Assembly (NCBI RefSeq): GCF_015223195.1
Contig: NZ_JADFUA010000001.1
Location: 1-64,000 of the forward strand
Origin: Chitinilyticum piscinae
GTDB lineage: Bacteria; Pseudomonadota; Gammaproteobacteria; Burkholderiales; Chitinibacteraceae
DNA length: 64,000 bases
Reading direction: 5' to 3'
Position numbers and translations under genes: made by a program. A model generated the notes under the pieces. The model saw only the letters and a list, made by a program, of their open reading frames with translations. It searched no databases and was not told the origin of the DNA. Of the stretch, positions 7,887 through 56,547 are shown piece by piece. The number at the start of each line of letters is the position of its first letter. The stretch's first letter is position 1.

Positions 7887-7918
7887 GCGTCACAAACATG
7901 GCGCGAAATTCTCAAGAC

Positions 7919-8008
7919 GGAAGCGTGGCTGAGTGGTTTAAGGCAGCGGTCTTGAAAACCGTCGGGGATTTACGTCCCCCGTGAGTTCGAATCTCACCGC
8001 TTCCGCCA
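7919..8008 (+). tRNA. serT: tRNA-Ser (UGA), left copy
   Basis: A 90-base class II tRNA: acceptor GGAAGCG paired with CGCTTCC, anticodon loop CTTGAAA with anticodon TGA, a long variable arm (GGGGATTTACGTCCCC), the TTCGAAT T-loop and an encoded CCA. It is identical to the copy at 19753-19842 and forms the left border of the island. Confidence 0.97.
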
Positions 8009-8027
8009 CACTCTTGAATAAAACACT

Positions 8028-8054
8028 AAAGCCTTGATAAATCAGGGCTTTTTT
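8028..8054 (+). terminator. Terminator after left tRNA-Ser
   Basis: AAAGCC-TTGATAAATCA-GGGCTTTTTT, a short stem with a six-T tail, 20 bases beyond the tRNA. A similar but not identical hairpin follows the right tRNA copy. Confidence 0.75.
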
Positions 8055-8082
8055 ATTGCCCGAAATTTACTCAGCTGGATTT

Positions 8083-8118
8083 GTTACACGCACTGCTACA
8101 CAGCGTGCTACACAAAGG
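8083..8118 (+). repeat. Three 12-bp-phased direct repeats (GYTACACR), candidate integrase arm sites
   Basis: GTTACACG (8083), GCTACACA (8095) and GCTACACA (8107) begin exactly 12 bases apart, just ahead of the integrase start. The same motif occurs twice with the same 12-base phase at 19592-19611 near the other end. Paired clusters inside both borders resemble arm-type binding sites of tyrosine recombinases; this is inference. Confidence 0.6.
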
Positions 8119-8127
8119 ACAGCGGCC

Positions 8128-9666: not shown

Positions 9667-9690
9667 ATTTTTATTCAAAAACGGGCACCT

Positions 9691-9719
9691 GGCAGTTCGT
9701 AGAACTGCCATTGTTTTGT
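9691..9719 (+). terminator. Terminator between integrase and replication gene
   Basis: GGCAGTTC-GTA-GAACTGCC followed by ATTGTTTTGT, 25 bases after the integrase stop and 15 before the stop of the convergent replication gene. Confidence 0.7.
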
Positions 9720-9733
9720 ACAGCTCACAATGA

Positions 9734-12700: not shown

Positions 12701-12808
12701 AAGGCATTGATTGGCTTTTTCTATCGCGGCAGCCTGAATGTCAGGCCTGCCCCAACTTATTCGCTCAGCGATGTTCTGCCTGATGTATTTGTATTGTGAT
12801 TTCGTCAT
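9734..12808 (-). CDS. Fused HUH replication endonuclease (phage gpA-like) and UvrD-type SF1 helicase
   Basis: About 1,024 residues in two parts. The N-terminal half resembles the P2 gpA/replication-endonuclease family: a metal-binding HUH motif H-Y-H in TPHYHIVIW (about residue 270) and paired catalytic tyrosines in YLIKYISKG (about 396 and 400, the Y-x3-Y pattern of gpA). A Gln/Lys/Arg-rich helical linker (about 560-690) leads to a compact helicase: Walker A AAAGSGKT (about 715), TTYTSHTANE (Ia), LADEAQD (Walker B, about 812), VGDARQSIYGWRGAES (III), TIHAAKGAEAENVVL (V), YVRITRAK (VI). At about 330 residues the helicase lacks room for the large 1B/2B insertions of UvrD/Rep. In P2, gpA nicks while host Rep helicase unwinds; here both roles seem joined. 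Start 12808 follows a G7 run serving as ribosome site; the frame is open to 12862. Confidence 0.88.
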   Translation of the reverse strand: MTKSQYKYIRQNIAERISWGRPDIQAAAIEKANQCLEYIQANFSHLELENKNFLIPEHHIHRLKDEIFGQFPSFSSLYDQKIYVPPTLKWVLGKATNPKNWRRLYRANVLQAVELAAQKRKQIGGDSGQSYASKAAISHKKSQIDACRQFAKSRVLFDSRRAEKCAITPQKPDIKFAEWYCQLQAMRLLAEHQGLTSGGMLTITLPPEYHSNPKEAKDRTNTPQWTSKHTIKRGAKLITDYFNAVKAVLLKCKIKLLAVKVEEPQEDGTPHYHIVIWYKPEWFDAIKHRLVMDLPRLYGHRSTITGQGFSFKHNIGLVIRTRTANVIERADDKLKYQINNRQGTVYAIHNGSPSKGEAFDLNKGGGGVRFDLEAISSKMIPPDQLSPISGKQSLISYLIKYISKGIPKSGVLTDSVLAVMAHRSAHGLKAMQASGIPDGSLGVWDVALHTPEHVLKALEKRPDKTERTEILINLIRHCKKMPSAWSNSNDQVQFHTRLFELWVWMQKNADTYKVEVLKEIQPDKSSGKVTGLMVYDVQRLAVLMRDNPAQIKVKQRQREIKSLQKKVIDWARAGKNIYPLQEELSKQRQLLILRKQRLLVRKNQQKLAIATTVKTKLGDYKITTHNHRDSYMAYLTQLNVLARSGEPAQEHHQDENKNVSVLKNPNYTSVGNDSVLTTDHTQKLIEHAILGASTDSDLAQNIAIYAPIGKNHAIMAAAGSGKTYVLIRRVQIMLKAGISASSILVTTYTSHTANELKTRLAELGITKVMVGTLHHFAGQVLAQNGASHACNSYDQLIVLAAKVAIKEFHVLADEAQDLDADQWQLLHALGASIYAVGDARQSIYGWRGAESTQFIHFLNSCQRDLFGTSGRILMTHSRRSCAAIIGLANKLASDYASSIAIKRGGSVISKQCKDEVSEHQQIITFVQNQQSHSLVLTRQNSERIKIKKRLWEKGLANKASVMTIHAAKGAEAENVVLRCGKRKRAEVDGLETTNEWYVRITRAKKSLLITAVGGLPTAFLQALE

Positions 12809-12915
12809 TCGCGCCCCCCCAATTGTGGTTATTAAATGGAGGTAGAACGCTGAAAACACCAAATAATCGCTACACTACATAGACGTGATTCCTCTTCACT
12901 CCCCCCCCTCTGATG

Positions 12916-12939
12916 TCCAACCACTTGCAGGTGGTTGGA
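12916..12939. repeat. Perfect 9-bp inverted repeat upstream of the replication gene
   Basis: TCCAACCAC-TTGCAG-GTGGTTGGA, a perfect hairpin about 110 bases upstream of the replication gene start and next to a C8 run (12901-12908). On the plus strand it is followed by TATTTCTTT, so a weak terminator is possible. A nick-site hairpin or operator is equally plausible. The flanking interval 12809-13028 has no convincing gene. Confidence 0.55.
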
Positions 12940-13028
12940 TATTTCTTTGTGCGTTCATTTGGTCTCTAGGATTTGATCGCAACAATTGAAAGTATATGCC
13001 CGAAGCACCGTGCTTGATGAACTCGCAA

Positions 13029-13059
13029 AAAATAAAAGCCCCGCCGAAATTGGCGGGGC
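13029..13059 (-). terminator. Strong rho-independent terminator
   Basis: GCCCCGCC-GAAATT-GGCGGGGC; on the minus strand it is followed by TTTTATTTTTT. It lies about 80 bases past the stop of the Replic_Relax-like gene and separates it from the replication gene, so the two are probably transcribed independently. Confidence 0.88.
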
Positions 13060-13138
13060 TATTACCGACACGAAGTCGAAATCAAGTGCAGTGTGCTCCA
13101 AAATATGAGCATCACATCGTATGGCCTACTAGGTATAG

Positions 13139-14095
13139 TCAGCAATTCGAATTTGGATCAAAGACTAGCGAAAAATTCTTGTCCAAATATGCGCTTGAAG
13201 CAATGACGGAAGCAGTCGGAGTTTTATGGTGCAAATAATCGCTTAATGCATAAGGGATAAACTTGATGAATTGCATGCTTGTTAAATAATCGTAAGTTTC
13301 ATCGTCTAACCTATTTTTCAATCTGCTTTCAAAATCCCCTGCGCCACGAGGTGATGTATTTACGTAAAACAACACGTTCCTGAGCTGTGCTGCACCGTGC
13401 AACAGCTGAATGCTTGCTAGCATTTGCGACGCCCGATTTCCTTGAATCGCCTGACTTTTATCTAATCGAATACCAGTCAGAAAAGTAGCTAAATGACGAA
13501 ATTGCTTCTGCCCTTTGGGGGTTTTCTCGTTTTCTATCCAAGTCACTGCTGCGGGTTCGTTCGGATCGGTAGATCGCGTCATAATCAGCCCATCGGCGAG
13601 TTTTCCTTTGCAAGTGTAACGGGCTTTATCGACGTAGAAGTCCAACTCGGAAATCAGTGATACTCTTGCCAGCAGTCGATTAACCTTACTGATGGCATCC
13701 ACTGAGTTTGCCGAGGTATTCACTGTCTTTTCTAGCCGACGGGCAGTGATTTGCAACCGCCTTGCCAGCATGATGTTGGCTGTGTACATCCTGTGAACCC
13801 GTCGCCCCATGCTAGTCTTGGCATAATCTGCATGGTGGCGCACTCCAGTTTCAAAATGTGCAGATACGAAACTTACTCCCTTTTTCGTAATGAAAATGAT
13901 GTCTGGCCTAAAACCAGTAATCTTCCTTTTTGCCAGCAATCCTTGCCGAAAAAGGTATGCCAAATCGCTTCTTGTCGTTTTGATATTGCCGCACTGAATG
14001 GCGCATGCTTCATCAAAACTCAGAAAGCCAAACTTCGCAAAACCTGCAAGCAGGTTGATCTTTCTATCGCTTGGGCGTAGCTGGATGTATTGCAT
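13139..14095 (-). CDS. Replic_Relax-like plasmid/element replication-relaxation protein
   Basis: About 318 residues. The N-terminal 75 residues look like a winged helix (AKFGFLSFDEACAIQ, then TTRSDLAYLFRQGLLAKRKI and FITKKGVSFV), the arrangement of the Replic_Relax family of plasmid and mobile-element proteins. The rest is alpha/beta with a D-F-Y-V-D strand and a T-W-I-E-N-E-K segment that could be nuclease-like acidic residues; this is weak evidence. An AGGAG (14103-14107) lies 7 bases before the Met at 14095, so the longer frame to 14140 is rejected. Family members are linked to replication or mobilisation; exact activity is unknown. Confidence 0.65.
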   Translation of the reverse strand: MQYIQLRPSDRKINLLAGFAKFGFLSFDEACAIQCGNIKTTRSDLAYLFRQGLLAKRKITGFRPDIIFITKKGVSFVSAHFETGVRHHADYAKTSMGRRVHRMYTANIMLARRLQITARRLEKTVNTSANSVDAISKVNRLLARVSLISELDFYVDKARYTCKGKLADGLIMTRSTDPNEPAAVTWIENEKTPKGQKQFRHLATFLTGIRLDKSQAIQGNRASQMLASIQLLHGAAQLRNVLFYVNTSPRGAGDFESRLKNRLDDETYDYLTSMQFIKFIPYALSDYLHHKTPTASVIASSAYLDKNFSLVFDPNSNC

Positions 14096-14258
14096 ATAAA
14101 ATCTCCTAGTGCCGTTGAAACTACGTATAGCTAACAACATCGGAGCTTTGTCACCTCATGAGAAAACCACATGAAATTATCAAAAAACGCTGGAAAAACA
14201 CAGCAAAATCAAAATCACGGATTCCCCGCTAAAATATGCAGCCCTGCCGAACTGATAT

Positions 14259-14444
14259 ATGGATACACCAATTACAAACATACTGCGCAAAACGTCGGAC
14301 AATCTCAATGTTCTCCGCTGGACGCGGCATCTCGAATTCGGCTGGGGCCTCTGCGACCAAGTTTTTTGTCAAGGGGGGGGCCATACCTCATCACATATGA
14401 TGATGGGCTTTGAGAAAATCCACTCAAAGCCCATCATCAATTAA
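14259..14444 (+). CDS. Doubtful 61-residue ORF in the replication-module intergenic region
   Basis: Within the 765-base gap 14096-14860 this short frame (N-terminus MDTPITNILRKTSDNLNVL) ends inside the hairpin at 14398-14439 and crosses a G8 tract (14373-14380). No ribosome site is visible. An overlapping 80-residue frame (14171-14413) is equally weak. A real small gene, perhaps length-variable at the G tract, is possible but unproven. The rest of the gap contains a C8 tract near 14508 and no supportable gene. Confidence 0.2.
   Translation: MDTPITNILRKTSDNLNVLRWTRHLEFGWGLCDQVFCQGGGHTSSHMMMGFEKIHSKPIIN
14398..14439. repeat. Perfect 17-bp stem-loop
   Basis: TGATGATGGGCTTTGAG (14398-14414) and CTCAAAGCCCATCATCA (14423-14439) are perfect inverted copies separated by 8 bases. 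There is no T tract on either side, so it is not a standard rho-independent terminator. It could be a terminator of unusual type, a single-strand origin or a folded recombination site. Confidence 0.7.
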
Positions 14445-14860
14445 CGCTCACATTCATTTTCCCTTTGGGGAAACTGTGTTCCGTAACATTGTCTCGGTCT
14501 GGCGGAGCCCCCCCCTGTCATGCTGACCGTAGCCAATGACCAGCCATTGGGATGGCTTTCCATCAGGAGTCGCAAAATTTCGCAAGCTCAATTATTGCTC
14601 AACCTGATGAATTCATTAGCTCCTCCTTGCACGTACTCGCCGTAGGCGTCGAGCATCGCCCTCCACGACGCTGCAAATAGCCATAAAGCGGACTATTTTT
14701 GCTGCGGAATTCGACCCTTTGGGCTTTAAAACAGCAACAGCACTTCGCTTCAAGTCAACATCTGCGCCAGTCGCTATGCTTTGTGGCACACATCTCGACA
14801 CTCAAAACTCAGCCAAGCCCAAAATCATCGAAGCAAGCCAACTGAATCTCACCAACTTTT

Positions 14861-15336
14861 CTAGAGACTCTTGAGCCGTTGGAAATACTGCTTTTCAAAC
14901 TCTACCGGCGATAGCCCATTTGCGGAACCGTGACGACACTTCGGGTTGTAGAACAGCTCGATGTAGTCGAAGATGTCCCGCCGGGCTTCTTCCCGGTCGT
15001 TATAGGTTTTTCGCTTGATGCGCTCCCGCTTCAACAACTGGAAGAAGCTCGCCGCAACCGCATTGTCGTGGCAATTCCTGCGCCGTCTCATGCTCGGCAC
15101 CAAACGATGCGCCTTCAAGAAGTTCTGCCAGTCATAACTGCTGAACTGGCTTCCCTGATCGGAATGCACGAGCACCTCCTGCGTGGGCTGGCGTCGCCAT
15201 ACCGCCATCCACAAGGCATTCAAGACCAGCTCCCTGTCGATGCGTGACTGCATCGACCAACCAATCACCTGCCGTGAGAACAGATCAAGCACCACCGCCA
15301 AGTACAGCCATCCCTCATGCGTGCGGATGTATCCAC
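14861..15336 (-). pseudogene. Truncated IS3-family transposase (OrfB C-terminus)
   Basis: The reading frame begins abruptly near 15336 with YIRTHEGWLYLAVVLD and runs to 14861, giving the last ~155 residues of an IS3 OrfB. The rve core retains both Asp (VLDLFSR and VHSDQGSQF), but the glutamate normally in the N-x-x-x-E-S-F-F block reads A-V-A-A-S-F-F, so the catalytic Glu is replaced by Ala (GCG). OrfA, the N-terminus of OrfB and the left inverted repeat are missing. This is a dead remnant. The gap to 15477 holds nothing else identifiable. Confidence 0.88.
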
Positions 15337-15476
15337 GTTGTTATTCCGATTACTCCAGCATCATATATTTGAACTTTTATGCCAACGGAGGTAAGCTCGA
15401 ACTCAGCAGAAACAAAAAAATATTATGGAATTTAACAGCTAAGTTTTCATAAATTCTAATATTCGGAGATGGCGCA

Positions 15477-16400
15477 GTGGGAAAGATCACAACTAAATAC
15501 AACCATATCTTGCGCACCACCGCTTTGCTTGCACTAGCATCTAGCGCAAACGCAGGCCTGCTGGATGATGTAACGAAAGAAACCAACAACAGCAAGGAAT
15601 ACTTCGCGATTTGGGACATTCCGAACGTTACCAACCCAGATGCACTGTACGACCAGTTGAAAGACTCAATCCGCGTACAGGCCACATCTGCCCATGCCAC
15701 TCGCCCAGTGCAAGCAGATGAACCGCCAGAGTTCCCGAACAAAATGGAATTCAAAGGCATCACCGTCATGGGCATCACCATCCCGATGCCCAGCTGCAAC
15801 GGCCATACTTTCCAGATCACCACGATGGACAACAGCATGGCGCAATACGGTGATAGCACGATGATGATGGCTTGTGTATTTCCTTATCGCACAGGCATGC
15901 GCATCAACTATTACGCACGGTTTTCTGAACAAGTAGGCACCAGCTCACTACTTTCAGGCGCACTACTGGGTAAAATGATTACAAAGGCAGTTGGTTTAGG
16001 CGATACCAGCAAGTTTGTTGGCTCAACCATGAATCAAATCGACTCTGATTTGAAAAATATGGGTTTGCAAGCCACTTTAGTGCAACTGCAACCAGCGATG
16101 GAAGGCAAAGTCGTCAGCGCAGACCCTCTAGCCGCCCAACAGCAAAAAAACAGACAATCCGCCAGCAACACCCAAGCAGCTCTTGCAGCTCGCAAAGAGC
16201 TTTTAGGTATTGGCCTGACTTATTCAAATCGGGACCAATTTGTTGACGCCATTAAACGCGGCGACGCCATTACCGTCGATTTATTCGTTAAAGCACGTGG
16301 CGTGGATTTGAAATCAGCAGATAACAGCGGAAAAACACCACTTCGCTATGCCACCGATGAAGAAGTAATTGGTATTTTAAAGGGTGCAGGAGCAAGCTAA
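15477..16400 (+). CDS. Exported protein with C-terminal ankyrin-like segment
   Basis: A 307-residue protein with a signal peptide (basic start, hydrophobic LLALASS core, SANA-G cleavage near residue 27). The body has no motif I can name. The last 60 residues (DAIKRGDAITVDLFVKARG, then SADNSGKTPLRYA and VIGILKGAGA) look like one or two ankyrin repeats. GTG is used as start, with GGAG 8 bases upstream. Predicted periplasmic; function unknown. First of four exported or membrane cargo genes on this strand. Confidence 0.7.
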   Translation: MGKITTKYNHILRTTALLALASSANAGLLDDVTKETNNSKEYFAIWDIPNVTNPDALYDQLKDSIRVQATSAHATRPVQADEPPEFPNKMEFKGITVMGITIPMPSCNGHTFQITTMDNSMAQYGDSTMMMACVFPYRTGMRINYYARFSEQVGTSSLLSGALLGKMITKAVGLGDTSKFVGSTMNQIDSDLKNMGLQATLVQLQPAMEGKVVSADPLAAQQQKNRQSASNTQAALAARKELLGIGLTYSNRDQFVDAIKRGDAITVDLFVKARGVDLKSADNSGKTPLRYATDEEVIGILKGAGAS

Positions 16401-16541
16401 GCGACCTTAAACCCTTTAATACATCGGACAAGGCCGAATGCAATTACACATAAAATCCGAGCAGCACTCAACAATGAGTTTTCGACTGCCGTGCCGCGGA
16501 AGCCAATAACATTGGCAATCAAATTTAAAGGACACTATGAA

Positions 16542-16970
16542 ATGAATTGGAAAAACCATTCAAAAATCATTATCACTATCTGCATTTTTTCTATTTCTTT
16601 TTGGTGTCCGATGGCTCTAGCACATACAGCTGTTGCCACCGTCAAAAACCATGCTACGGAAGCCTTTGGATATGCATATAACTACCCAACACAGAAACTA
16701 GCCGATGAAAATGCCGTTAAAGCATGTCGTAGTGATGCACTAAAAAATGGGGTAGGTCATTTAGCCAAACAATGCAAAGTTGATTTACGTGGCAAAGGCC
16801 CGGGTTATGGAGCAGTCACTTGTGGGGAGAATGGCTGTGGATACGTCACAGGTTTTGATGATTCACAAGCAGCTATTGATGCTGCATATGTGCTTTGCAA
16901 CACGTATTACACAAGCTGCAACACAAAAAATATTAAATACTGGGAGGACTTTGTCGGTTTTGGAAGATAA
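16542..16970 (+). CDS. Small secreted cysteine-rich protein, DUF4189-like
   Basis: About 142 residues with a signal peptide (hydrophobic IIITICIFSISF, MALA-H cleavage). The mature part has a repeated YAYNYPTQKLADENAVKAC / DDSQAAIDAAYVLC pattern and about six cysteines, resembling secreted DUF4189-type proteins in which aromatic and Ala-Cys repeats alternate. Start 16542 follows AAAGGA; the longer frame from 16491 would bury the signal peptide. The 210 bases after it hold a short Cys-bearing frame (about 17020-17110) that may be a decayed coding remnant. Confidence 0.6.
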   Translation: MNWKNHSKIIITICIFSISFWCPMALAHTAVATVKNHATEAFGYAYNYPTQKLADENAVKACRSDALKNGVGHLAKQCKVDLRGKGPGYGAVTCGENGCGYVTGFDDSQAAIDAAYVLCNTYYTSCNTKNIKYWEDFVGFGR

Positions 16971-17181
16971 CAATTAGCTGCATTCCTAGGAACAGTCAGT
17001 GAAACTGCTAGTCTTTATGCAAAGACGGTGGTTACATTATTAAGTATTCCTATGACTGTAAAATTAGAGCACAGGTTAACCCAACCTTTGATTCACTCCC
17101 AAATCAATGACCCAGTCCCAGTAAATACTGCTAGCAAAATATACCCCCCATCAGTTATAGCAATATCAACTTTTAGGTAAA

Positions 17182-18108
17182 ATGCACATGCACAAACAGA
17201 GTTATTTTTTTGTTTTATTAGGTTTCTTAGCACTAATCGGTGCATTTGGCAATCTTGCCCATCAGCCGACTCCACTCGGAACATTTGAATATGTTTACAA
17301 TGACATCAGTTATGTAGGTGGTTTGGCATGGCTATTACCGCTCTTGGCACTTACTGGAACTTGCCTTGGCTTTTTGCGAGTATTTAAATGGAGCAAAATA
17401 CCCGACTTGCGTTGGTGGAGTGTTTTATTCTCTATAATTAGCCTAGTGGTGCTATTTATCGTTCAAGTACAGTCAGTCCAAAAACTTAACGAATATGCCA
17501 GCATTCCGGGAAGTAGCCCGGGCTGGGGTGCATACCTGCAATGGACTGCATATCTGCTTTATTTTGTTTACTCCTTGCGTTGGTATTCCAGCGAAGCAAA
17601 TGAGCAAAACGGAACTACTGATACTGATGGACTTTCATCGTTCATAATTAATGATTTTATACCTGATGCACCAAGCAAACTCGTCAAAGTGGCGCTTTGC
17701 CTCTCCTGCCTGCTAACGGTTTTAGTATTTGAGGCTCCAGTTATCCAAGTCTCCTTGCTGAATAAAAGCGTCGGGATCAACATCAGTGCATCTGACTGGA
17801 TCTGGGCCTCTTATTTCAGTGCAATTCAAATCAATCTGATTGTTCTAGCACTTATATTTGCTCCGGCAAGAATAAATTCAAGTTATTTATTTTCTGGGAA
17901 AACAGCCTGCATCGTGATTGCAATTGCTTATGCTTACATTTGGTGGGAGAGCAAACAACCAATGACAGAAGAGCTTGCAATACAAAAAGAAATGGTTTTC
18001 CAAACTACTGCATGGCCTTTTTTAATTGTGATTCTTGTTGCTATAATCGCTACATCTTTACTGCTAATCAACAAGTCACGCAAGAAAAATTTAAAAATGG
18101 CTGATTAA
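17182..18108 (+). CDS. Polytopic membrane protein of unknown function
   Basis: A 308-residue protein with about seven or eight hydrophobic segments (near residues 7-24, 44-66, 80-98, 117-133, 172-190, 210-228, 238-254, 273-294) and a short basic tail (KSRKKNLK). No recognised family. AAT-rich codons differ from the backbone. AGG lies 5 bases before the start. It sits among secreted proteins of the island cargo. Confidence 0.65.
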   Translation: MHMHKQSYFFVLLGFLALIGAFGNLAHQPTPLGTFEYVYNDISYVGGLAWLLPLLALTGTCLGFLRVFKWSKIPDLRWWSVLFSIISLVVLFIVQVQSVQKLNEYASIPGSSPGWGAYLQWTAYLLYFVYSLRWYSSEANEQNGTTDTDGLSSFIINDFIPDAPSKLVKVALCLSCLLTVLVFEAPVIQVSLLNKSVGINISASDWIWASYFSAIQINLIVLALIFAPARINSSYLFSGKTACIVIAIAYAYIWWESKQPMTEELAIQKEMVFQTTAWPFLIVILVAIIATSLLLINKSRKKNLKMAD

Positions 18109-18113
18109 CAAAC

Positions 18114-18580
18114 GAAGCCGCAAGCACTTAACTGGTTTCGCAAAGCGGCCGAACAGGGCGAAGACACGGCGCAATATAACCTTTCGGCCGTGCAAGCAAC
18201 TGGTCAAGGCGTTCGGCAAGATTTTGTTCAAACGAGCCGCCGAACAAGAGCTAGCCAAAGGTCAATGAGTCCAACAGGATAATACCCTTGCTGCTCACTG
18301 GTATACCAAAGCTGCCGATCAAGGAATAGCAATGGCGCAAACCCATCTTGCTCAATTGTATATGGATGGGCAACAGGCGCCACAAAACTGGGAAATTGTT
18401 TATGCACCATTCAATCTTGCCGCCAATGACGCCACCACCAATGCAGCAATAAGCATAGTGCTCGCCGCCGAACAGCTAAGCGCCAGAGACCTTGCCGAGG
18501 CAGAGCGACTTAGCAAAGACATAGCCAGACCAAATAATTTGAAACGTGCCATTGAAGCCTACCTCAGACTCTCGATTTAA
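18114..18580 (+). pseudogene. Decayed Sel1-repeat protein
   Basis: Sel1-like repeat fragments are readable in two frames: ALNWFRKAAEQGEDTAQYN with GQGVRQDF first, ending at a stop near 18280, then AHWYTKAADQGIAMAQTH and the tail NLKRAIEAYLRLS. There is no start or signal peptide, and an internal frameshift and stop break it. The tail parallels the end of the intact Sel1 gene next door (NLLKALDAYLKKS), so this is a decayed tandem paralogue. Confidence 0.75.
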
Positions 18581-18610
18581 AAACATGCAGCTTAAGAAAT
18601 TGGAAGCCTC

Positions 18611-19567
18611 ATGAAAATCAACCCCACACTACTTACCCCACTCATTGCAGTGCTATTTTCGTTTTCAACTGCTGCCTACGCAGGATTTGATGAAGGCCTC
18701 ACAGCCTATCAAGAAAAGAACTATCCGCTTGCCCTAAAAGAATTTTCTGCTGCGGCAACCCAAGACGATGCGAGAGCTCAATTCGGCCTCGGCCTCTTAT
18801 ATTCCAAGGGTCTTGGTGTAGCACAGGACCATATACAAGCCATCAGTTGGTACCGCAAAGCAGCGGAGAAAGGTAATGCTCAAGCGCAGCATAATCTCGG
18901 TCTCATGTATCAAAAAGGCCAAGGTGTTGCACCGGATTACCCGCAAGCCGTCAGCTGGTATCGCAAGGCAGCCGAGCAAGGGTATGCAGATGCGCAAAAC
19001 AACCTCGGTCAAATGTATGACGAAGGTCGAGGCATAGCACAAAGCTACAATCAAGCCCTGTATTGGTATAGGAAAGCCGCCGAGCAAGGCAATGAAGCTG
19101 CACAATTAAATCTAGGCATCATGTACCACTTGGGCCAAGGTGTGAAACAGGATGTCATGCAAGCCTTCAACTGGTATAGCAAAGCAGCCAAGCAAGGACA
19201 TGCGGGTGCTCAATACAATCTCGGCGTCATGTATGGCAGCGGCCAAGGTACAACACAGGACTACTTGCAAGCGTTCTACTGGTATCGTAAATCAGCCGAG
19301 CAAGGGAACGTAGGGGCACTCAACAATCTCAGTGCGATGTTCCTCGGCGGCCAAGGTGTACAGCAAAATCCAATCGTTGCTTATGCTCTATGTAATGTCT
19401 CCGCCTCACTAGAAGGATCAACGGACAATAAGGCAATCAAGGTTCGCGATATATTAAAAACTAACATGACGCCCAAGCAAATCACTATTGGGGATGCCCT
19501 CAGTCGAGAAATGCTCAAGCCAAATAATTTGTTGAAAGCATTGGATGCCTATTTGAAAAAAAGCTAA
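18611..19567 (+). CDS. Exported Sel1-like repeat protein
   Basis: A 318-residue protein with a signal peptide (VLFSFSTAAYA-G near residue 24) followed by about six 36-residue Sel1-like repeats of the form A-Q-x-N-L-G-x-M-Y-x-x-G-x-G-V-x-x-D-x-x-Q-A-x-x-W-Y-x-K-A-A-E-Q-G, then a non-repeat C-terminal domain. Such solenoids mediate protein-protein contacts, often in the periplasm. The start follows GGAAGC. It is the last gene before the island's right border, next to a decayed paralogue. Confidence 0.9.
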   Translation: MKINPTLLTPLIAVLFSFSTAAYAGFDEGLTAYQEKNYPLALKEFSAAATQDDARAQFGLGLLYSKGLGVAQDHIQAISWYRKAAEKGNAQAQHNLGLMYQKGQGVAPDYPQAVSWYRKAAEQGYADAQNNLGQMYDEGRGIAQSYNQALYWYRKAAEQGNEAAQLNLGIMYHLGQGVKQDVMQAFNWYSKAAKQGHAGAQYNLGVMYGSGQGTTQDYLQAFYWYRKSAEQGNVGALNNLSAMFLGGQGVQQNPIVAYALCNVSASLEGSTDNKAIKVRDILKTNMTPKQITIGDALSREMLKPNNLLKALDAYLKKS

Positions 19568-19591
19568 AAAGTCAGCAGGGGGACTAGACCT

Positions 19592-19615
19592 GTTACACAA
19601 ACTGCTACACAATAC
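19592..19615 (+). repeat. Two 12-bp-phased direct repeats, candidate integrase arm sites (right end)
   Basis: GTTACACA (19592) and GCTACACA (19604) start 12 bases apart and share the spacer ACT with the left-end cluster at 8083. They lie about 140 bases inside the right tRNA copy. The interval 19616-19752 is AT-rich and holds no gene. Confidence 0.6.
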
Positions 19616-19752
19616 TCACCTCGATTGCCACTTAGCCTTAAGAGTTATTTAAAATTAATTTTTAGAATTTACAGAAATTAAGGCAATCTAAAAACTTAAA
19701 TCATTGAATTTAAACACAAATTCAGCAATGGTTGCGGTGTTTTATCAAGTAC

Positions 19753-19842
19753 GGAAGCGTGGCTGAGTGGTTTAAGGCAGCGGTCTTGAAAACCGTCGGG
19801 GATTTACGTCCCCCGTGAGTTCGAATCTCACCGCTTCCGCCA
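19753..19842 (+). tRNA. serT: tRNA-Ser (UGA), right copy
   Basis: Base-for-base identical to 7919-8008, complete from acceptor to CCA, with anticodon TGA. Identity extends only two bases upstream (AC) and stops at CCA. Upstream sequence is AT-rich island DNA, and no clear promoter like that of the left copy is seen, so expression of this copy is uncertain. Confidence 0.97.
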
Positions 19843-34343: not shown

Positions 34344-36050
34344 TCAGAGCACGATGCGCTCGGTAAGGTCGACCACCCGCGACACCTCATCGAGCGAAGT
34401 CGTGCCATCCAGAACACGCCGGCAGCCGTCATCGGCCAGCATCCGGAAGCCATGGCGCAGCGCCACTGCACGGATTTCCTGCATGGTCGCCCGACGGGCA
34501 ACCATTTCATCCAGCTCCGGGTTCATGCGCAGCAACTCCATGATGGCGGTACGCCCCTGATAGCCGGTTTCTGCGCAGTGGGCGCAGCCACGGGCGCGGT
34601 AGATACTTCCACTCCACCCGGCAGGCTCACCCAGCAAGCGCAGCTCGAAATCATCCGGCGCGTAGGCCTCCCGGCAATGCACGCAGAGCTTGCGCACCAG
34701 CCGCTGCGCAATGATGCCGATAATGTTGCCGGCCATGATATCCGCCTGCACGCCGATATCCAGCAGGCGCGGCAAGGCGCCCAGCGCGGAGCTGGTGTGC
34801 AGGGTCGAATACACCTGATGACCGGTCATCGCAGCCCGGAATGCCATGTCGGCCGTATCGCGATCACGGATTTCCCCCACCAGGATGATGTCCGGATCCT
34901 GACGCATCATCGAGCGGATACCGTTGGCGAAATCCATGCGGGCGGCCTCGTTGACCGAGGTCTGCCGGATCTGGGGGATCGGGTACTCGACTGGATCCTC
35001 CAGTGTCATGATGTTCACTTCAACTGTATTGATGTGATTCAGTATCGAATAGAGCGTGGTTGTCTTGCCTGATCCGGTGGGGCCGGTTACCAGAATGATG
35101 CCCTCCGGGCGGGCTATCATCAGGCGCAACAGATTGAGGTTGCGTTCCTCGAGCCCCAGCCTGTCCAGGGGCACCAGTCCTTTCTGGCGATCCAGAATCC
35201 GCAGCACCAGATTCTCGCCCCAGCTCGTCGGCTGGCTGGAGACCCGGAAATCCAGTGGCCGCCCTGCCAGCGACAAGGAAATGCGGCCATCCTGCGGGGC
35301 GCGGGTTTCCGCAATATTCATCGTCGCCATCACCTTCAGTCGCACCACCATTGCCGGCCAGTAAGTGCGGTGCAGCGCGCGAATCTGCCGCAGCACCCCG
35401 TCGATGCGGTAACGGATGCGCACAAAGGCCTGCTCGGGCTCGAAATGGATATCCGACGCCCCCCGGGTGACGGCATCGGCCAGCAAGGCATCAATCAACC
35501 GCACCACCGGCTGGCTGTAGGCGTTATCCGTGGCCGACAGGCTGCTCCAGTCGACCTCGCCGGTTTCGATCTCCCGCAAGATGCCGTCAATGGACAGCTC
35601 AAATCCGTAATACTGGTCAATCGCATGCAGCACATCCGATTCACCCGCCAGCATCGGCACAATGTCCAGGCCCTTGACCAGCGTACGCAGCTGATCCAGC
35701 GCAACCAGATTGTTCGGATTGACCATGGCGACAGTCAGGCGGCTTATCGCGTGATCCAGCGCCACCGGCAGTACCAGCAAGCGCTTGGCGACGTCCTTGC
35801 CGAGCAAAGCCAGCGCGTTGGCGGCAGGAATGACTCGCGAAAGATCAATGCTCTGGCTACCCAGATTTTCCGAGAGAGCCTCGCGCAGGACACCTTCCGA
35901 GACAAAGCCCTGCGACACCATCAGCTTGCCTAGCGGCTCGCCAGAACGGCGCTGCTCCAGCAAGGCAATGCGCAGCTGATCCTGGGTAATCAGCCCCTTG
36001 CTGACCAGCAACTCCCCCAGAGGGAGCTTGCTGCGCGTGACCCCGTTCAT
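34344..36050 (-). CDS. mshE: MshE, pilus assembly ATPase with MshEN c-di-GMP-type domain
   Basis: A 568-residue GspE-family motor. The N-terminus holds two tandem MshEN motifs, PLGELLVSKGLITQDQLRIA (about 11-30) and PLGKLMVSQGFVSEGVLREA (about 36-55), the pattern that binds c-di-GMP in Vibrio MshE. The motor follows: Walker A GPTGSGKTTT (about 330), an Asp box, Walker B LVGEIRDRDTAD (about 395), and a zinc site of two Cys pairs (LCVHC and GCAHC). The start overlaps mshN by 4 bases. Activity is likely under c-di-GMP control. Confidence 0.93.
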   Translation of the reverse strand: MNGVTRSKLPLGELLVSKGLITQDQLRIALLEQRRSGEPLGKLMVSQGFVSEGVLREALSENLGSQSIDLSRVIPAANALALLGKDVAKRLLVLPVALDHAISRLTVAMVNPNNLVALDQLRTLVKGLDIVPMLAGESDVLHAIDQYYGFELSIDGILREIETGEVDWSSLSATDNAYSQPVVRLIDALLADAVTRGASDIHFEPEQAFVRIRYRIDGVLRQIRALHRTYWPAMVVRLKVMATMNIAETRAPQDGRISLSLAGRPLDFRVSSQPTSWGENLVLRILDRQKGLVPLDRLGLEERNLNLLRLMIARPEGIILVTGPTGSGKTTTLYSILNHINTVEVNIMTLEDPVEYPIPQIRQTSVNEAARMDFANGIRSMMRQDPDIILVGEIRDRDTADMAFRAAMTGHQVYSTLHTSSALGALPRLLDIGVQADIMAGNIIGIIAQRLVRKLCVHCREAYAPDDFELRLLGEPAGWSGSIYRARGCAHCAETGYQGRTAIMELLRMNPELDEMVARRATMQEIRAVALRHGFRMLADDGCRRVLDGTTSLDEVSRVVDLTERIVL

Positions 36051-51225: not shown

Positions 51226-51741
51226 ATGACCGTAAAGCTGCACAAAACTCTTGGCTTTACCCTGGTTGAGTTGATGGTAGTCGTCGCCATTCTCGGCATC
51301 CTTCTGGCTGTCGGCTTGTCGTCTTACCAAGAGCGGCTCCGTAAAGAATCTCTGAATAACATTGCAGATACTTTTGCCCAAGCAATCAATAACGCTCGAT
51401 CAGCCGGCCTTGCAAAAAGCTCAGATGTTTTTCTAAGCGCAAAAGATGGGAGCAGTTGGTGCTACGGTGCCCACATTGCACCGCCAGCAGCTGCCTGTGA
51501 CTGCACCAAGGACCCTTCGGGTGCAGATGCAGACAAATGCGATGCTGCCTTTACCCTGCAGAACAACAATACCGAAATCAGCGCAAGCTTCGGTGACCTT
51601 GCAGGCAACGACATACAGATCGACTCCGTACGAGGGCTTCTCAATCCCTCATCAGTGATCTCCGTCACCTTCACAAACAGTGCTGGTGATACTGCGCAAG
51701 TTCGCATCGGCAGCACTGGCGAAGCCAGGCGAATTCAATGA
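51226..51741 (+). CDS. fimT: FimT/GspH-type minor pilin
   Basis: A 171-residue prepilin: KTLG-FTLVELMVVVAILGILLAVGL is a canonical class III signal (cleavage after Gly, Glu+5). The GspH/FimT pattern ADTFAQAINNARSAGLAKSS follows, and a Cys-containing beta domain ends the protein. GAGGGA precedes the start by 8 bases, and a TAGAAT -10 box lies at 51185-51190. It opens a four-gene minor pilin cluster. Confidence 0.9.
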   Translation: MTVKLHKTLGFTLVELMVVVAILGILLAVGLSSYQERLRKESLNNIADTFAQAINNARSAGLAKSSDVFLSAKDGSSWCYGAHIAPPAAACDCTKDPSGADADKCDAAFTLQNNNTEISASFGDLAGNDIQIDSVRGLLNPSSVISVTFTNSAGDTAQVRIGSTGEARRIQ

Positions 51742-51751
51742 GGCTATAGAT

Positions 51752-52474
51752 ATGGCACAAGTCAATTATCACTATGAGCAAGGCTACACATTAATCGAAT
51801 TGCTCATCGCCGTTGCCTTGGCAGTACTGGCCTTAGGCGCACTTGGCTATCAAATGTCTGCACAACTGACGGCCAATCGTGCTCAACTGCGAATGCAAAA
51901 AACAACCGCAGATCTGCGCTCGGTGCTGGACATCATTGCCCAGGATTTGAAGCGTGCAGGGTTCGCCAGCACTACCGATCAGGCTGTTATTACTGCATTC
52001 AGCCAGAAAAGCAATTACACCCTGTACCAGCTCACGCAGAATACCCCCGTTACTTGCGTGACATTCGCTTATGACCGTGACAGCGACGGTGCACTCGATG
52101 CAAATGAAGGGTTCGCTTACGCATTCGACTCCGCCAACAAGACGATTCGCGCTTATCAGGGGGCGACACCAAACTGCAGCAATCTGACGGCCGCAGGTTG
52201 GACAGCGCTAACCAACCCGGCACAAACAGCGATCAGCAGTCTAACGTTCACCCTCCAAGCCCCAGGTACGCCCGCAACAGCGCCAACAGAAACGCAGAAA
52301 GGCGTATGTCCATTCAATATTGCCATTACGATCAGCGGTGAATCGGTGCAAAAGTCCGGGACGCCATTTACCGGCACACAGACACTGCTGGTAAAGGTTC
52401 GTAATGACAGCAGCAGTTATCTTTCGGGAAGCAACTGCAATTACCCTACCCCGACTCCGGCCCCGGCCCCATAA
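51752..52474 (+). CDS. pilW: PilW-type minor pilin
   Basis: About 240 residues: class III signal EQG-YTLIELLIAVALAVLALGALGY (Glu+5), then the PilW pattern TTADLRSVLDIIAQDLKRAGFAS, and a C-terminal Cys plus Thr-Pro/Ala-Pro tail (PTPTPAPAP). The Met at 51752 with GAGG upstream is chosen; the frame to 51680 overlaps fimT. PilW helps prime type IV pilus assembly and forms part of the tip complex. Confidence 0.85.
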   Translation: MAQVNYHYEQGYTLIELLIAVALAVLALGALGYQMSAQLTANRAQLRMQKTTADLRSVLDIIAQDLKRAGFASTTDQAVITAFSQKSNYTLYQLTQNTPVTCVTFAYDRDSDGALDANEGFAYAFDSANKTIRAYQGATPNCSNLTAAGWTALTNPAQTAISSLTFTLQAPGTPATAPTETQKGVCPFNIAITISGESVQKSGTPFTGTQTLLVKVRNDSSSYLSGSNCNYPTPTPAPAP

Positions 52475-52490
52475 CATGCAGGAGCAGATG

Positions 52491-53705
52491 ATGAATACCC
52501 ATCCTCAATTCCGGAGACAAAAGGGCCTTGTCACACTGGCCGTCTCCATCATGACACTCGCTATCGCGTCTGTAGTGGTTATCTATGCCTATAGCAGCAC
52601 GATCAGCGAAATCGGGCAACAACAAGGCACGCTAAAGAGCATTTACTCCCGAAATGCGGCCGAAGCGGGGGTAGAGTATGCCATTGCCGCCATTAATGCT
52701 AATACAGCCACTTACCTCAACTCCGACGGCTCCATCAAGAAAAGCTCATTGGAATTACCCATCGCAAAGGTGAATGTTACCAATGCCGCTGGCGCCAACA
52801 TTCAAGTGGATCCCAAAGCTCGCTTTGCGATTGCAATCAGCCGTGCATCTACGACCTCGCCGATTCAAATTACCAGCATCGGCGGCTACAATTGCGGCTC
52901 TGCCAGCAACACCTCACAAAGTCAGCTGATTGATAGCTGCGAATCCGTTTCTCGCGTTCAGGTCATGATCAACCTAACCACAACCACAGGCAATCCCTAT
53001 CCTGGACTCAGTGATGCGTTGGTCACCCTCGGCGATGCAGAGTTTGGGGGATCGAGCTGTATTCAAGGTGGCGGTGGTGGAAATGCGGTTCACTCAGGCG
53101 GAACGATCAAGCGAACCACCAGCTTTTCTGGCGATGATTGTACCGACAATAACGGCAAAGGCGTATATGGTGAGTCCTTCCAGAATGACGGAAATCTGAA
53201 ATCCCTCGAAGGTAATAATGCCCTTGCGGCAGAGACCATTTACGGCATGTCTGCCAAAGACTTGTGCGCCGACAATAAATACAAGCCCGGCGACAACCTG
53301 GCAAAAGACCAAGACGGCAAAGTAATTGTCAATGGGCTTAAGCTTGACCCCGCCAACTTTCAGACACCCGGAGTGTATTGCTTCAAAGGGGATGTCAAAT
53401 TGGGCGGTAGTGGTAACGATACCTTTGGCCTAGAAGGTGTTGGTCAAGGAGTTGTGATCTACGTCGAAGGCCAAGTAGAAATGAACGGCAATGCCACTAT
53501 CAACGGAATTGTTCATGCGACAGGTGCAATGACGCAAGGCACCGGTAATGTTTCTGTCAATGGTTCATTGATCAGTAACGGTTCATTCAAGTCGAATGGC
53601 AACATCAAGATTCGTTTTGTCGGCGATGGTGTCCCCCCCCCTGGTGGAGGAACCAGCGACAAGAACTATCGCGTTGTTGCCGGTAGCTGGAAAGATTGGG
53701 AATAA
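52491..53705 (+). CDS. pilX: PilX-type minor pilin with Gly-rich beta domain
   Basis: About 404 residues. N-terminus RRQKG-LVTLAVSIMTLAIASVVVIYAY lacks Glu+5, typical of PilX/GspK. The body has Cys pairs and a C-terminal series of Gly/Asn-rich turns (VIYVEGQVEMNGNATINGI, then SNGSFKSNGNIKI) suggesting a beta-solenoid. A run of nine C at 53633-53641 encodes VPPP near the C-terminus. GGAG lies 6 bases before the Met at 52491. Confidence 0.78.
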   Translation: MNTHPQFRRQKGLVTLAVSIMTLAIASVVVIYAYSSTISEIGQQQGTLKSIYSRNAAEAGVEYAIAAINANTATYLNSDGSIKKSSLELPIAKVNVTNAAGANIQVDPKARFAIAISRASTTSPIQITSIGGYNCGSASNTSQSQLIDSCESVSRVQVMINLTTTTGNPYPGLSDALVTLGDAEFGGSSCIQGGGGGNAVHSGGTIKRTTSFSGDDCTDNNGKGVYGESFQNDGNLKSLEGNNALAAETIYGMSAKDLCADNKYKPGDNLAKDQDGKVIVNGLKLDPANFQTPGVYCFKGDVKLGGSGNDTFGLEGVGQGVVIYVEGQVEMNGNATINGIVHATGAMTQGTGNVSVNGSLISNGSFKSNGNIKIRFVGDGVPPPGGGTSDKNYRVVAGSWKDWE

Positions 53706-53716
53706 GGAGACGCACC

Positions 53717-55819
53717 ATGAAAACGATGCAATTACGCCGCAAACAAAGCGGCAGCATGATCCTTGAAGTGGTTGTGTCCCTCCTGATTTTAGCCATTGGC
53801 TTGCTGGCACTATACCGCTTGCAAATTGGGCTAGTTAGTCAGAGCAGCATCTCTTCACAGAAAAATTATGCTGCCATGAATGCGCTGCGGATTATGGAAG
53901 GGATACGCGGCAACAAATTCCAGCTTTCGGCGACGGATACCGAGCTGCAAAAAGCCCTGCGTGGCACCGATAGCTATCAGGGGGATGCGGCGGCATTCAG
54001 CTTCGCTCTGCTTCCCATCAACAGTGGCATCGCAGGCCTTACCCAGTACGCTACTCAAGTCAACTGGACCGATCAGTACGGCAAACCGCAGCAGCTGGTT
54101 CTGGTTAGCTATGCCAATGCACTGATGCAAACCACCCTGGGCTCGACCAGTGGTGGCGGCGGCAACAATAGCAAATTCAGCGGCATGACGGCGCCAGACT
54201 ACAAGGATGGCAAGACCTATAAAGACAAGAGCATTGTCTCGAAAGATGGCAAGCAATACATACTGAATCTGCCCAATGCCAACAATATTGTTGGCAACAA
54301 GGACACCGCCCCCGGGGTCAATCCGGACTGGAAAGAGGTGAAATATTACGCCGAGGGCACCGTCACCTGGTGGAATACCGAGGCCAACTACGGCGTCTGC
54401 AGCGTCACCGCCAATAGCAGCAATGGCAATCCCACACAATGTGCCGCACAGGAGGCCAGTGGCAAGTTATTGCGCCAACTCTGTGCCAAGCAGGATGGCT
54501 CCGACCCCAACTGCTACAAGGATGCCAAGGACAAGCAGTACTACAAGATCAATGGCACTGTGGATAGCAATGGGAAAACCAAGTATTACGCCTATTCGAT
54601 CACACTGGATTACTCCTGCCTCTCCGCATCCGACACCATGCAGCTGGTGCTGACCTGCAAGGACGCCCAGGGCAGTACTCTGACTACCATCGGCAGCACC
54701 ACGGTAACGACCAGCAAGCCATCAGGCCCCCCGTACGCCTCGGATGTACCCCTGAAGCATTTCGGTGCTGATGAAGGCGTGTCCGTCCCGTATGACCTGC
54801 CCATCGTGAAGGTCACCGACCCGGTCTTCAAAACCGATGCCCCTGCACCATTGCCGACCAACTGCACCCCGGATCTCGTATTCTGGGAAACAGTGAAGAG
54901 TATCGTTTATCGCAGCCCGTCGGACTACGACATTCTCTATCGTCAGGGTGATGCGGTGTGCTATCTCAATTCGGGTGTACCGACGATTTACATCGCCATG
55001 GCCGAAATCTCGGCACTGTACAACAACCAATGGGCCACGACCGAGACCTTCTACCCGTCGACACAGACCAACATGTGGACATCCAAGGCCATTGCCTGCG
55101 ATCCGACCACCACTCCGGCAGGCCTGCTGATTACACCCAGCAATGTGGCCAACTTCAAGAATGGTGACGTCGGCTGCTTCTCGGATACCTTCGGGAATAA
55201 CCAGACCACCGTGGGCATCTGGGCGGTAGTGACCAATCAAACCAGCAGCAATGGGTCAACCATGCCGTCGACAGTGGGTAGCAAATGGACCTTTGTCTGG
55301 GAAAATGGCCTCAATGGTGCCAACCGCAAGTGCTATAAGGCCAACACCAGCAATCCAAGCAGCAAGGACTTTGCAACGGTCATTACCTGCCCGTCCAATA
55401 GCAGTGCAACTCCGGTACCAACAGTTGCCCCCAGCGTGACTCCGACTGTGACTCCCACTGTGACACCGACCGTGGCGCCTACATCGACACCGGTTCCATC
55501 GCCGACACCGACGCCAGTTACGTACAGTGTCAACATGCAGGTGTTTGTCAATGCACCGAACAACCAGTCCACTACTTGCTCGACCAAGGTGACTTCAGGC
55601 ACTGCCACCAGCAATTGCACCAATGCCACTGGCAGCTTTACGGGTACTGGTGGCTATGTGCAGCTGAGCCCGGCGCCTGTCTGCTCGGCAACCAGTAGCC
55701 CGGCTACCGTGACCACCTCTTGCACTACGGCGAATGGCAAGGCTGCCAGCAACAATGTTTCGGTCAACATCGCCAACAGCAATGGCTGGGTACAGCTGTA
55801 TGTCGATAACTTCAAATAA
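53717..55819 (+). CDS. pilV: Large PilV-like minor pilin with CBM5/12-like modules
   Basis: About 700 residues. KQSG-SMILEVVVSLLILAIGLLALYRLQ is a PilV-type class III signal (Glu+5). A usual PilV ends near 150-200 residues; here long modules follow. Residues ~160-208 (YKDGKTYKDKSIVSKDGKQY, then PGVNPDWKEV) match the Y-x-x-G-x-x-Y-x-x-x-x-x-V-x-x-x-G-x-x-Y ... PG ... W pattern of CBM5/12 chitin-binding modules. Similar but weaker segments occur near 400 (YRQGDAVCYLNSGVPTIYIA) and 475 (FKNGDVGCFSD). A Thr/Pro/Val linker (~570-605) leads to a Cys-containing C-terminal domain. AGGAG precedes the start. Probably a pilus-tip adhesin; chitin or another glycan as ligand is inference. Confidence 0.8.
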   Translation: MKTMQLRRKQSGSMILEVVVSLLILAIGLLALYRLQIGLVSQSSISSQKNYAAMNALRIMEGIRGNKFQLSATDTELQKALRGTDSYQGDAAAFSFALLPINSGIAGLTQYATQVNWTDQYGKPQQLVLVSYANALMQTTLGSTSGGGGNNSKFSGMTAPDYKDGKTYKDKSIVSKDGKQYILNLPNANNIVGNKDTAPGVNPDWKEVKYYAEGTVTWWNTEANYGVCSVTANSSNGNPTQCAAQEASGKLLRQLCAKQDGSDPNCYKDAKDKQYYKINGTVDSNGKTKYYAYSITLDYSCLSASDTMQLVLTCKDAQGSTLTTIGSTTVTTSKPSGPPYASDVPLKHFGADEGVSVPYDLPIVKVTDPVFKTDAPAPLPTNCTPDLVFWETVKSIVYRSPSDYDILYRQGDAVCYLNSGVPTIYIAMAEISALYNNQWATTETFYPSTQTNMWTSKAIACDPTTTPAGLLITPSNVANFKNGDVGCFSDTFGNNQTTVGIWAVVTNQTSSNGSTMPSTVGSKWTFVWENGLNGANRKCYKANTSNPSSKDFATVITCPSNSSATPVPTVAPSVTPTVTPTVTPTVAPTSTPVPSPTPTPVTYSVNMQVFVNAPNNQSTTCSTKVTSGTATSNCTNATGSFTGTGGYVQLSPAPVCSATSSPATVTTSCTTANGKAASNNVSVNIANSNGWVQLYVDNFK

Positions 55820-55881: not shown

Positions 55882-56547
55882 TCAGCGCTTCACTAACAGG
55901 GTCAGCCCATCCCCCACCGGCAGCAGGCTGCACTCGACCCGGTCATCGTCACGCAAATCCCGATTAAACTGGCGCACGACCCGCACGCCAGCAGATTCAC
56001 CCTCCACCGGCTCAGCCACCCGTCCGCCCAGCAGCATATTGTCGAGGATAATTAGCCCTCCGCGACGCACCAGCTGCAAGCCGCGTTCGTAGTAGGCCGG
56101 ATAGGCGGGTTTGTCGGCATCAATGAACATGCAGTCAAATTCACCGGCACGTCCCTCTGCCAGTAGCTCATCCAGTGATTTCATGGCGTCCTGCAGGCGC
56201 AATTCAACCCGGTGTGCGACACCGGCTTTTTCCCAGTGCTGCCGCGCGATACGAGTGAACTCGGCACTGGCATCACAGGCCACGACCAGACTGTCTTCAC
56301 CCATTGCCAGTGCGGCAGTCAGTGAGCTGTAGCCGGTAAAGGTGCCCACCTCCAGATAGCGCCTAGCGCCGATCAGACGCAGCAGCAAGGTCAACAGCGC
56401 CCCCTGTTCGGGAGCCAGCTGCATTTTCGCCAGCCGATGGCCTGCAGTTTCATGGCGCAGATCAGCCAGCGCAGGAGCTTCCCGCAAGGTATTGCGGCGG
56501 AGATAGTCCTCAAGCAGGGAGGACACAGCCAGATTGGAACGGCTCAT
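55882..56547 (-). CDS. SAM-dependent O-methyltransferase (catechol/caffeoyl-CoA type)
   Basis: A 221-residue methyltransferase_3 protein: LEVGTFTGYSSLTAALA (SAM loop, about 80), ACDASAEFTRIARQHWEKAG, CMFIDADKPAYPAYYE (metal-binding Asp), LIILDNMLLGGRV and a C-terminal LPVGDGLTLLVKR. Methylates a small hydroxylated substrate with a divalent metal; substrate unknown. Single gene, ended by the hairpin at 55834-55872. Confidence 0.93.
   Translation of the reverse strand: MSRSNLAVSSLLEDYLRRNTLREAPALADLRHETAGHRLAKMQLAPEQGALLTLLLRLIGARRYLEVGTFTGYSSLTAALAMGEDSLVVACDASAEFTRIARQHWEKAGVAHRVELRLQDAMKSLDELLAEGRAGEFDCMFIDADKPAYPAYYERGLQLVRRGGLIILDNMLLGGRVAEPVEGESAGVRVVRQFNRDLRDDDRVECSLLPVGDGLTLLVKR

Follow-up and report, generated by a model that had tools for sequence, protein, structure and literature searches.

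The window, by which we mean the whole stretch of 64,000 nucleotides analysed here, contains four consecutive prepilin genes in the order FimT, PilW, PilX and PilV. The last of these encodes a PilV-type prepilin of 700 codons, hereafter P0001, in an open frame that begins with an ATG at 53717 and extends to 55819 on the plus strand. The features of the cluster and of P0001 are listed below.

51226-51741, plus strand: FimT/GspH-like minor prepilin of 171 aa, with G|FTLVE and Glu5 present; N_methyl match at E 1.5e-7, NCBIfam gspH and prepilin matches below cut-off.
51752-52474, plus strand: PilW/GspJ-like minor prepilin, with G|YTLIE; N_methyl match at E 1e-5, PRK10557 and gspJ matches below cut-off; the start was placed by estimate at an internal ATG, whereas the longest frame begins at 51680.
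52491-53705, plus strand: PilX/GspK-like minor prepilin of 404 aa, with G|LVTLA and without Glu5; identified by its position, its N-terminus and its counterparts in the related genomes G012 and G006.
53717-55819, plus strand: PilV-type modular prepilin P0001, 700 aa; TIGR02523 match.
53717-54151, plus strand: class III leader, hydrophobic helix and PilV pilin domain, about residues 1-145; the TIGR02523 match covers 10-91.
54191-54340, plus strand: module 1, a diverged CBM5/12 module, residues 159-208; core Y168 and W205 kept, L185-P186 at the place of the exposed aromatic pair.
54350-54751, plus strand: Cys-containing region, about residues 212-345, common to the five long PilVs aligned.
54863-55099, plus strand: look-alike module 2, about residues 383-461; support through the G006 homologue only.
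55097-55333, plus strand: look-alike module 3, about residues 461-539; CBM5/12 relationship unsupported.
55409-55516, plus strand: Thr-Pro-rich linker, about residues 565-600, read from the sequence.
55517-55816, plus strand: C-terminal domain with four Cys (621, 634, 656 and 669).

The N-terminus of P0001 matches the NCBIfam model TIGR02523 with 44.4 bits (E 2.2e-11), below the curated cut-off of 52.2 bits, and its leader, RRKQSG|SMILE, displays the G12|S13 boundary, the Glu5 and the hydrophobic helix of class III signal peptides. G12, E17 and W117 are invariant in both of our pilin alignments, A1 and A2, and the FimT, PilW and PilX genes that complete the four-pilin set expected around a PilV lie beside P0001 at 51226-53705. 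These results confirm the earlier note in its reading of a 700-residue frame from 53717 with a PilV-type N-terminus. Since the pilin module is fused to a CBM5/12-related module, a domain that is not specific to pili, P0001 is a modular pilin. A search of PDB sequences with P0001 returned two chance-level matches (E 0.7 and 1.9) and nothing else, and tblastn against plasmid records gave no match to it. The sole locus from a scan of genome contigs was a protein of a Bacteroides MAG, which was judged by eye not to be a pilin.

The PilX/GspK-like protein of the window has no Pfam or NCBIfam match, and its counterparts match Pfam PilX_N at E 3.4e-6 in G012 and E 0.036 in G006. PilX and GspK lack Glu5, as stated in a passage of PMC7541494, and the window's protein lacks it as well. 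A Gly-rich repetitive region brings this pilin up to about 404 aa; single-sequence AlphaFold modelled that region mostly as short strands, at low confidence (pLDDT 48.9). It ends in W-K-D-W, and a C-terminal W-x-D-[FWY] is found in the PilX-like proteins of several relatives. The downstream neighbour of P0001, at 55882-56547 on the minus strand, is an O-methyltransferase by eye. The host genome (3.65 Mb, 24 contigs) has four matches to PilT-family proteins over the cut-off, so that a retractable type IV pilus is plausible in this organism. The window itself contains a match to a PilT-family ATPase, below the PilT cut-off, at 34689-35495 on the minus strand.

Module 1 and the rest of the head

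The earlier note had also described a CBM5/12-like segment at about nucleotides 54190-54340 and had suggested an HMM search for this family. The outcome of that search depends on what is searched. With the whole of P0001, Pfam gave no CBM at E<=1 and a weak N_methyl match only, and NCBIfam gave no CBM. With the isolated segment of module 1, CBM_5_12 was the sole family at E<=10 (E 0.038, 14.5 bits), below the Pfam gathering cut-off of 26.2 bits, and our custom HMMs scored the segment above shuffled sequences. Residues 140-215 reached 18.1 bits against an HMM of 35 CBM5/12 modules, which comprised 20 modules from the host's own genome and 15 pilin-borne modules picked by eye, with the P0001 locus left out; the best shuffle reached 10.1 bits, and none of 1000 attained the score. 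Because some of the pilin-borne modules (L050, L051, L087, L093 and L121) were missed by Pfam or matched at E 0.028 at best, the shuffle test was repeated without them, and L115 (E 0.085) was also dropped. The same residues scored 9.0 bits with the 20 own-genome modules, and 16.8 and 16.2 bits with HMMs of 29 and 28 modules, in which 9 or 8 Pfam-supported pilin modules joined these 20; each time 0/1000 shuffles reached the score.

Among the 303 frames of the window (stop-to-stop, >=80 aa), P0001 ranks first with the 35-, 29- and 28-module HMMs (13.2, 11.7 and 10.9, against 3.9, 4.3 and 5.8 for the next frame) and second with the own-genome HMM of 20 modules (3.6, against 5.5 for another frame). 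A profile of 13 pilins, from which P0001 was excluded and whose CBM heads were partly recognised by Pfam and partly by eye, matches P0001 over model positions 1-214 of 222, from the helix to the module, at E 1.4e-17. In a profile-profile comparison with hhalign, the alignment of module 1 from the five long PilVs to the 20 own-genome modules spanned 49 columns and scored 18.39, at a probability of only 12%; in the control, 200 column shuffles peaked at 17.78. Support from shuffling differs among the long PilVs. It is 0/1000 throughout for P0001 and 0 or 1/1000 for G024; for G006 it is 0 to 2/1000 with the pilin-containing HMMs and 42/1000 with the own-genome HMM. Module 1 is weak in G030 (8-278/1000) and unsupported in G023 (215-841/1000). 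The single-sequence AlphaFold model of module 1 (pLDDT 42.6) is too poor to tell the three-stranded antiparallel sheet of the CBM5/12 fold from another fold.

These results bear on the question of whether the likeness to CBM5/12 could be convergence or chance in a beta segment that happens to contain Gly, Tyr and Trp. The Pfam match, confined to the isolated segment, the low hhalign probability, the weak or absent scores of the G030 and G023 homologues, and the other frame of the window that scores higher than P0001 with the own-genome HMM would all suit such an explanation. However, it has to contend with the absence of any equal among the shuffles for all four HMMs, with 0/200 among the column shuffles, and with the end-to-end match by a profile built from other pilins, and we consider it very unlikely. 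The descent of module 1 from a CBM5/12 ancestor is thus supported at the level of sequence, at 54191-54340, where the earlier note had placed the segment.

Its binding face is a separate matter. In CBM5 modules, according to a passage of PMC8449059, an exposed Tyr-Trp or Trp-Trp pair and a third aromatic residue touch chitin, and a Tyr and the C-terminal Trp form the core. Module 1 keeps the core residues, Y168 and W205. In our alignment, L185-P186 stand where the exposed aromatic pair is expected, and W, Y and F are all absent between Y181 and W205, which is the sole such case among 42 aligned modules. As module 1 has no aromatics in the stretch that grips chitin, a chitin grip by this module is not predicted. 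The earlier note had named a missing aromatic binding face as grounds for refuting its proposal, and by our alignment module 1 lacks that face, which speaks against chitin binding by residues 150-220 themselves.

Behind module 1, the residues G214, W218, C228, C301, C314 and G319 are invariant in the five long PilVs. The two weaker look-alikes reported earlier fared differently. The score of look-alike 2 is reached by 53-84/1000 shuffles in P0001 itself and by 0/1000 in its G006 homologue, so that support for this module comes through its relative only; it has the aromatics Y, W, F and Y in the stretch between the core residues, and its status as a CBM is not established. Look-alike 3, the score of which is reached by 396-723/1000 shuffles, was rejected as a CBM5/12 module. 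The Thr-Pro linker and the Cys-containing C-terminal domain are both present as described. By eye, this Cys domain is common to the long PilVs of G023, G024 and G030, and G006 has tandem CBM5/12-like modules instead.

CBM5/12 heads on PilV-type pilins in related genomes

The best relative of P0001 was found in G006, a genome of the same family (35% identity over residues 6-528, E 2.8e-58). Its tandem CBM5/12-like modules score 28.2 bits in Pfam as a segment, over the cut-off, and 24 bits in the whole protein (E 3.9e-5), below it. Over the cut-off for CBM_5_12 in Pfam are PilV-type pilins of G012 (E 1.4e-24, in two stretches), G030 (5.1e-17), G015 (2e-10), G022 (6.3e-10) and G001 (1.6e-6); a PilV-type pilin of G020 (1.1e-5) lies below it, as does that of G006. 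The host genome has two further PilV-type genes with CBM_5_12 just below the cut-off, on contigs C4 (E 4e-5) and C24 (E 5.7e-4). The modules of G012 match solved chitin-binding domains, those of chitinase A1 (1ed7, E 2.6e-12) and chitinase C (2d49, E 3.6e-14). Fusions of PilV to CBM5/12 thus also occur in sister species, where they are clearer than in P0001, and this points to a possible direct recognition of food polymers by pili.

The family sample comprised 43 genomes. Forty further regions were fetched, and a regular expression picked 47 pilin-like frames from them; it overlooked the locus-B PilV of G015, which was added to the reading later. Alignment A2 consists of 24 of those frames and 10 others, FimT/PilW-like frames, near-duplicates and some short PilVs having been dropped by eye. 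CBM_5_12 matches at E<=1 in 11/34 pilins of A2, and among 10 pilins chosen for Pfam, L087, L093 and L120 had no CBM_5_12 match at E<=1. Among the matches listed, the 13-pilin profile is matched from position 6 or earlier to position 200 or later of 222 in at least 15 of the 43 family genomes. When G012 and G022 are added, in which the match falls into two pieces of one frame, the number rises to at least 17/43 genomes in 6/11 genera; this count includes P0001, is based on the profile rather than on Pfam, draws on matches listed to about E 2e-12, and contains a match in G032 that has one internal stop.

The genes surrounding these pilins, whose names were assigned by eye, define two recurrent, syntenic loci. 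Locus A has the order YciO/Sua5-like gene, FimT, PilW, PilX, PilV with a CBM-type head, and Orn/Lys/Arg decarboxylase-like gene. It is found on the host's own C4, in G001, G012, G016, G020, G022 and G030, and also in G023, where the fetched stretch showed no YciO-like gene. Its heads vary among species, being of the WW type, the HT..GW.P type or the Cys type, or absent (G018, L014). At locus B (G006, G015, G023 and G030), a long PilV lies beside thioredoxin-like and YlqF-like genes; the head is a C-terminal CBM5/12 in G015, tandem modules in G006, and a Cys domain in G023 and G030. The window's cluster encodes proteins of the locus-B type among different neighbours.

The cluster of P0001 contains no PilY1, as had been noted before, and a search elsewhere detected one in the host genome. 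This single match (C20:185412) lies on a contig other than that of P0001 and adjoins a PilV of ordinary size (C20:187654). Of 13 family genomes tested, 10 have a PilY1, and its coordinates in none of them fall in locus A or B; in the other three, G015, G023 and G030, it was not found. A general rule that such clusters never occur with PilY1 is contradicted by G462, a genome outside the family, in which a long PilV is followed about 7 kb downstream by PilY1 (C1:3062414).

Outside the family, the enlarged architecture was traced in two samples. In the order sample (399 genomes, 3 candidates scored per genome), the long-PilV profile finds four genomes outside the family at E<=1e-18, with no match extending beyond about position 146 of 482. 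In the class sample (369 genomes, 7 candidates scored per genome), 64 genomes, including G000, match the CBM-pilin profile at E<=1e-15, and among the matches listed outside G000 all end at position 200 or earlier, that of G727 at 200. Frames read at 11 class loci, which did not include G727 and of which L137 yielded no frame, revealed several PilVs enlarged by other tails. Such PilV-type pilins of other families of the class (L135, L136, L138 and L139) are about 270 to 660 aa long, with C-terminal tails that have no evident CBM5/12. Given these tailed PilVs, carrying variable heads may be a general property of PilV.

The gene content of the host, with 16 GH18 and 43 CBM_5_12 matches, marks it as a chitin degrader, and the family sampled here probably resembles Chitinibacteraceae. 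Type IV pili are thought to help chitin-eating bacteria attach to particles, and the ligand of the tip is usually unknown.

Placement and possible function of the head

Several known systems resemble P0001 in part. PilB, with a vWA module, and PilC, with a lectin module, are modular type IV pilins of Streptococcus sanguinis, and the extra module of PilC binds glycans (passages of PMC8179133 and PMC9934059). Like them, P0001 combines a class III signal peptide, a pilin module and bulky extra modules with a predicted position at the tip. Unlike them, it carries a CBM5/12-derived module rather than a vWA or ConA-like lectin module, and the carrier is of the Gram-negative PilV type in a four-pilin cluster. 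The tip complexes of PilY1 with FimU, PilV, PilW and PilX in Myxococcus xanthus, as outlined in parts of PMC7541494, share with the present cluster the four pilin types side by side, the existence of several parallel clusters per genome and a PilX without Glu5, whereas the cluster of P0001 lacks PilY1 and its PilV and PilX are enlarged. With the CBM5/12 modules of chitinases and LPMOs (PF02839; 1ed7, 2d49, 6z40), module 1 has in common the core Tyr and Trp, the G-K-x-Y strand, the PG and the terminal W; it differs from them in being borne on a pilin and in lacking the exposed aromatic pair described in the passage of PMC8449059 cited above.

The passage on the 15 commonest modular-pilin architectures does not name CBM5/12, and the word chitin has 0 occurrences in the main texts of PMC8179133 and PMC9934059. 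In the chitin degrader Jeongeupia, two Flp-family pilin genes, which belong to a different pilus type, rank in the top five of the chitin-induced transcripts by significance, according to a section of PMC10455584. Among the matches listed from the open-licence PMC literature, none dealt with a PilV-type pilin that carries CBM5/12 or other chitin-binding modules. Pilins of modular build, some of them glycan-binding, are already known, and the fusion of CBM5/12 to PilV is a variant for which no report was found among those matches.

Against the computed background of architecture, homology, gene order, distribution and missing aromatics, we consider P0001, with a probability of roughly 0.6, to be a large, divergent modular tip pilin from a family whose PilVs carry variable CBM5/12 heads, and its head to be a candidate adhesin. 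Its placement at the tip and its adhesion are predicted from the behaviour of pilins in other species, and a ligand is inferred. By virtue of its PilV-type N-terminal helix, P0001 would be a substrate of prepilin peptidase and would assemble into a type IV pilus with the other three pilins of its cluster, FimT, PilW and PilX. The presence of this set without PilY1 makes a tip position plausible by analogy, and the four minor pilins would cap the pilus, as presented in a part of PMC7541494, in the manner of FimU/PilVWX and GspHIJK. The extra 550 residues, namely the CBM5/12-derived module, the Cys region, the Thr-Pro linker and the Cys domain, would then point outward. The large head would be displayed at the tip, as passages of PMC8179133 and PMC9934059 propose for modular pilins, and could be the adhesive part that other clusters obtain from PilY1. 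The family has several such clusters without PilY1 side by side, and the PilV head at a given locus is not the same from species to species; those heads that are textbook CBM5/12 modules are expected to bind chitin.

Because the heads in the family are often CBM5/12 modules, the binding of particulate polysaccharide is the simplest reading of their function. As module 1 retains the scaffold without the exposed aromatic pair, a structural or re-specialised module is likelier than a chitin grip; the ligand of P0001 is probably a different one, recognised by other parts of the head, or module 1 serves as a scaffold. P0001 could still be an adhesin in which at least one CBM5/12-like module grips chitin directly. 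The ancestry of module 1, the chitinolytic gene content of the host, the sister pilins whose CBM5/12 heads have aromatics, and the four aromatics of look-alike 2 are all compatible with this, but the loop with which CBM5 modules hold chitin is devoid of aromatics in module 1, and look-alikes 2 and 3 are insignificant on their own, which makes a direct grip rather unlikely. The same loss of aromatics from the binding stretch, with the scaffold residues remaining, and the conservation of G214, W218, C228, C301, C314 and G319 would fit a head that is mainly structural, in which module 1 and the regions behind it make the tip longer or stiffer or dock to PilX/PilW, with no carbohydrate ligand and with the CBM fold as a relic spacer. 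We think this unlikely, as the same loci of sister species bear CBM5/12 heads that exceed the Pfam cut-off.

Beyond the modular tip pilin that we favour for P0001, a wider model can be offered tentatively, with the odds somewhat against it. The family may possess multiple sets of tip pilins that do without PilY1, every set including a PilV with a different, swappable polysaccharide-binding head, such that one machine could present alternative tips for chitin or other polymers; the module of P0001 would have been re-specialised away from chitin. The PilV-type pilins with readily identified CBM5/12 modules are concrete, clonable candidates through which a pilus could recognise polysaccharide directly; the divergence of such a head is illustrated by P0001. 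As the same loci carry different module types in related species, specificity can be compared between close relatives.

A putative integrated element in the window

Elsewhere in the window, at 7917-19842, two identical 92-bp copies of tRNA-Ser(TGA), 11.8 kb apart, flank a segment. The segment opens with an ORF that is integrase-like by eye (8056-9666) and holds an ORF of 1042 aa on the minus strand (9734-12862), in which replication-initiator-like and helicase-like parts were recognised by eye. It is probably an element integrated in a tRNA gene.
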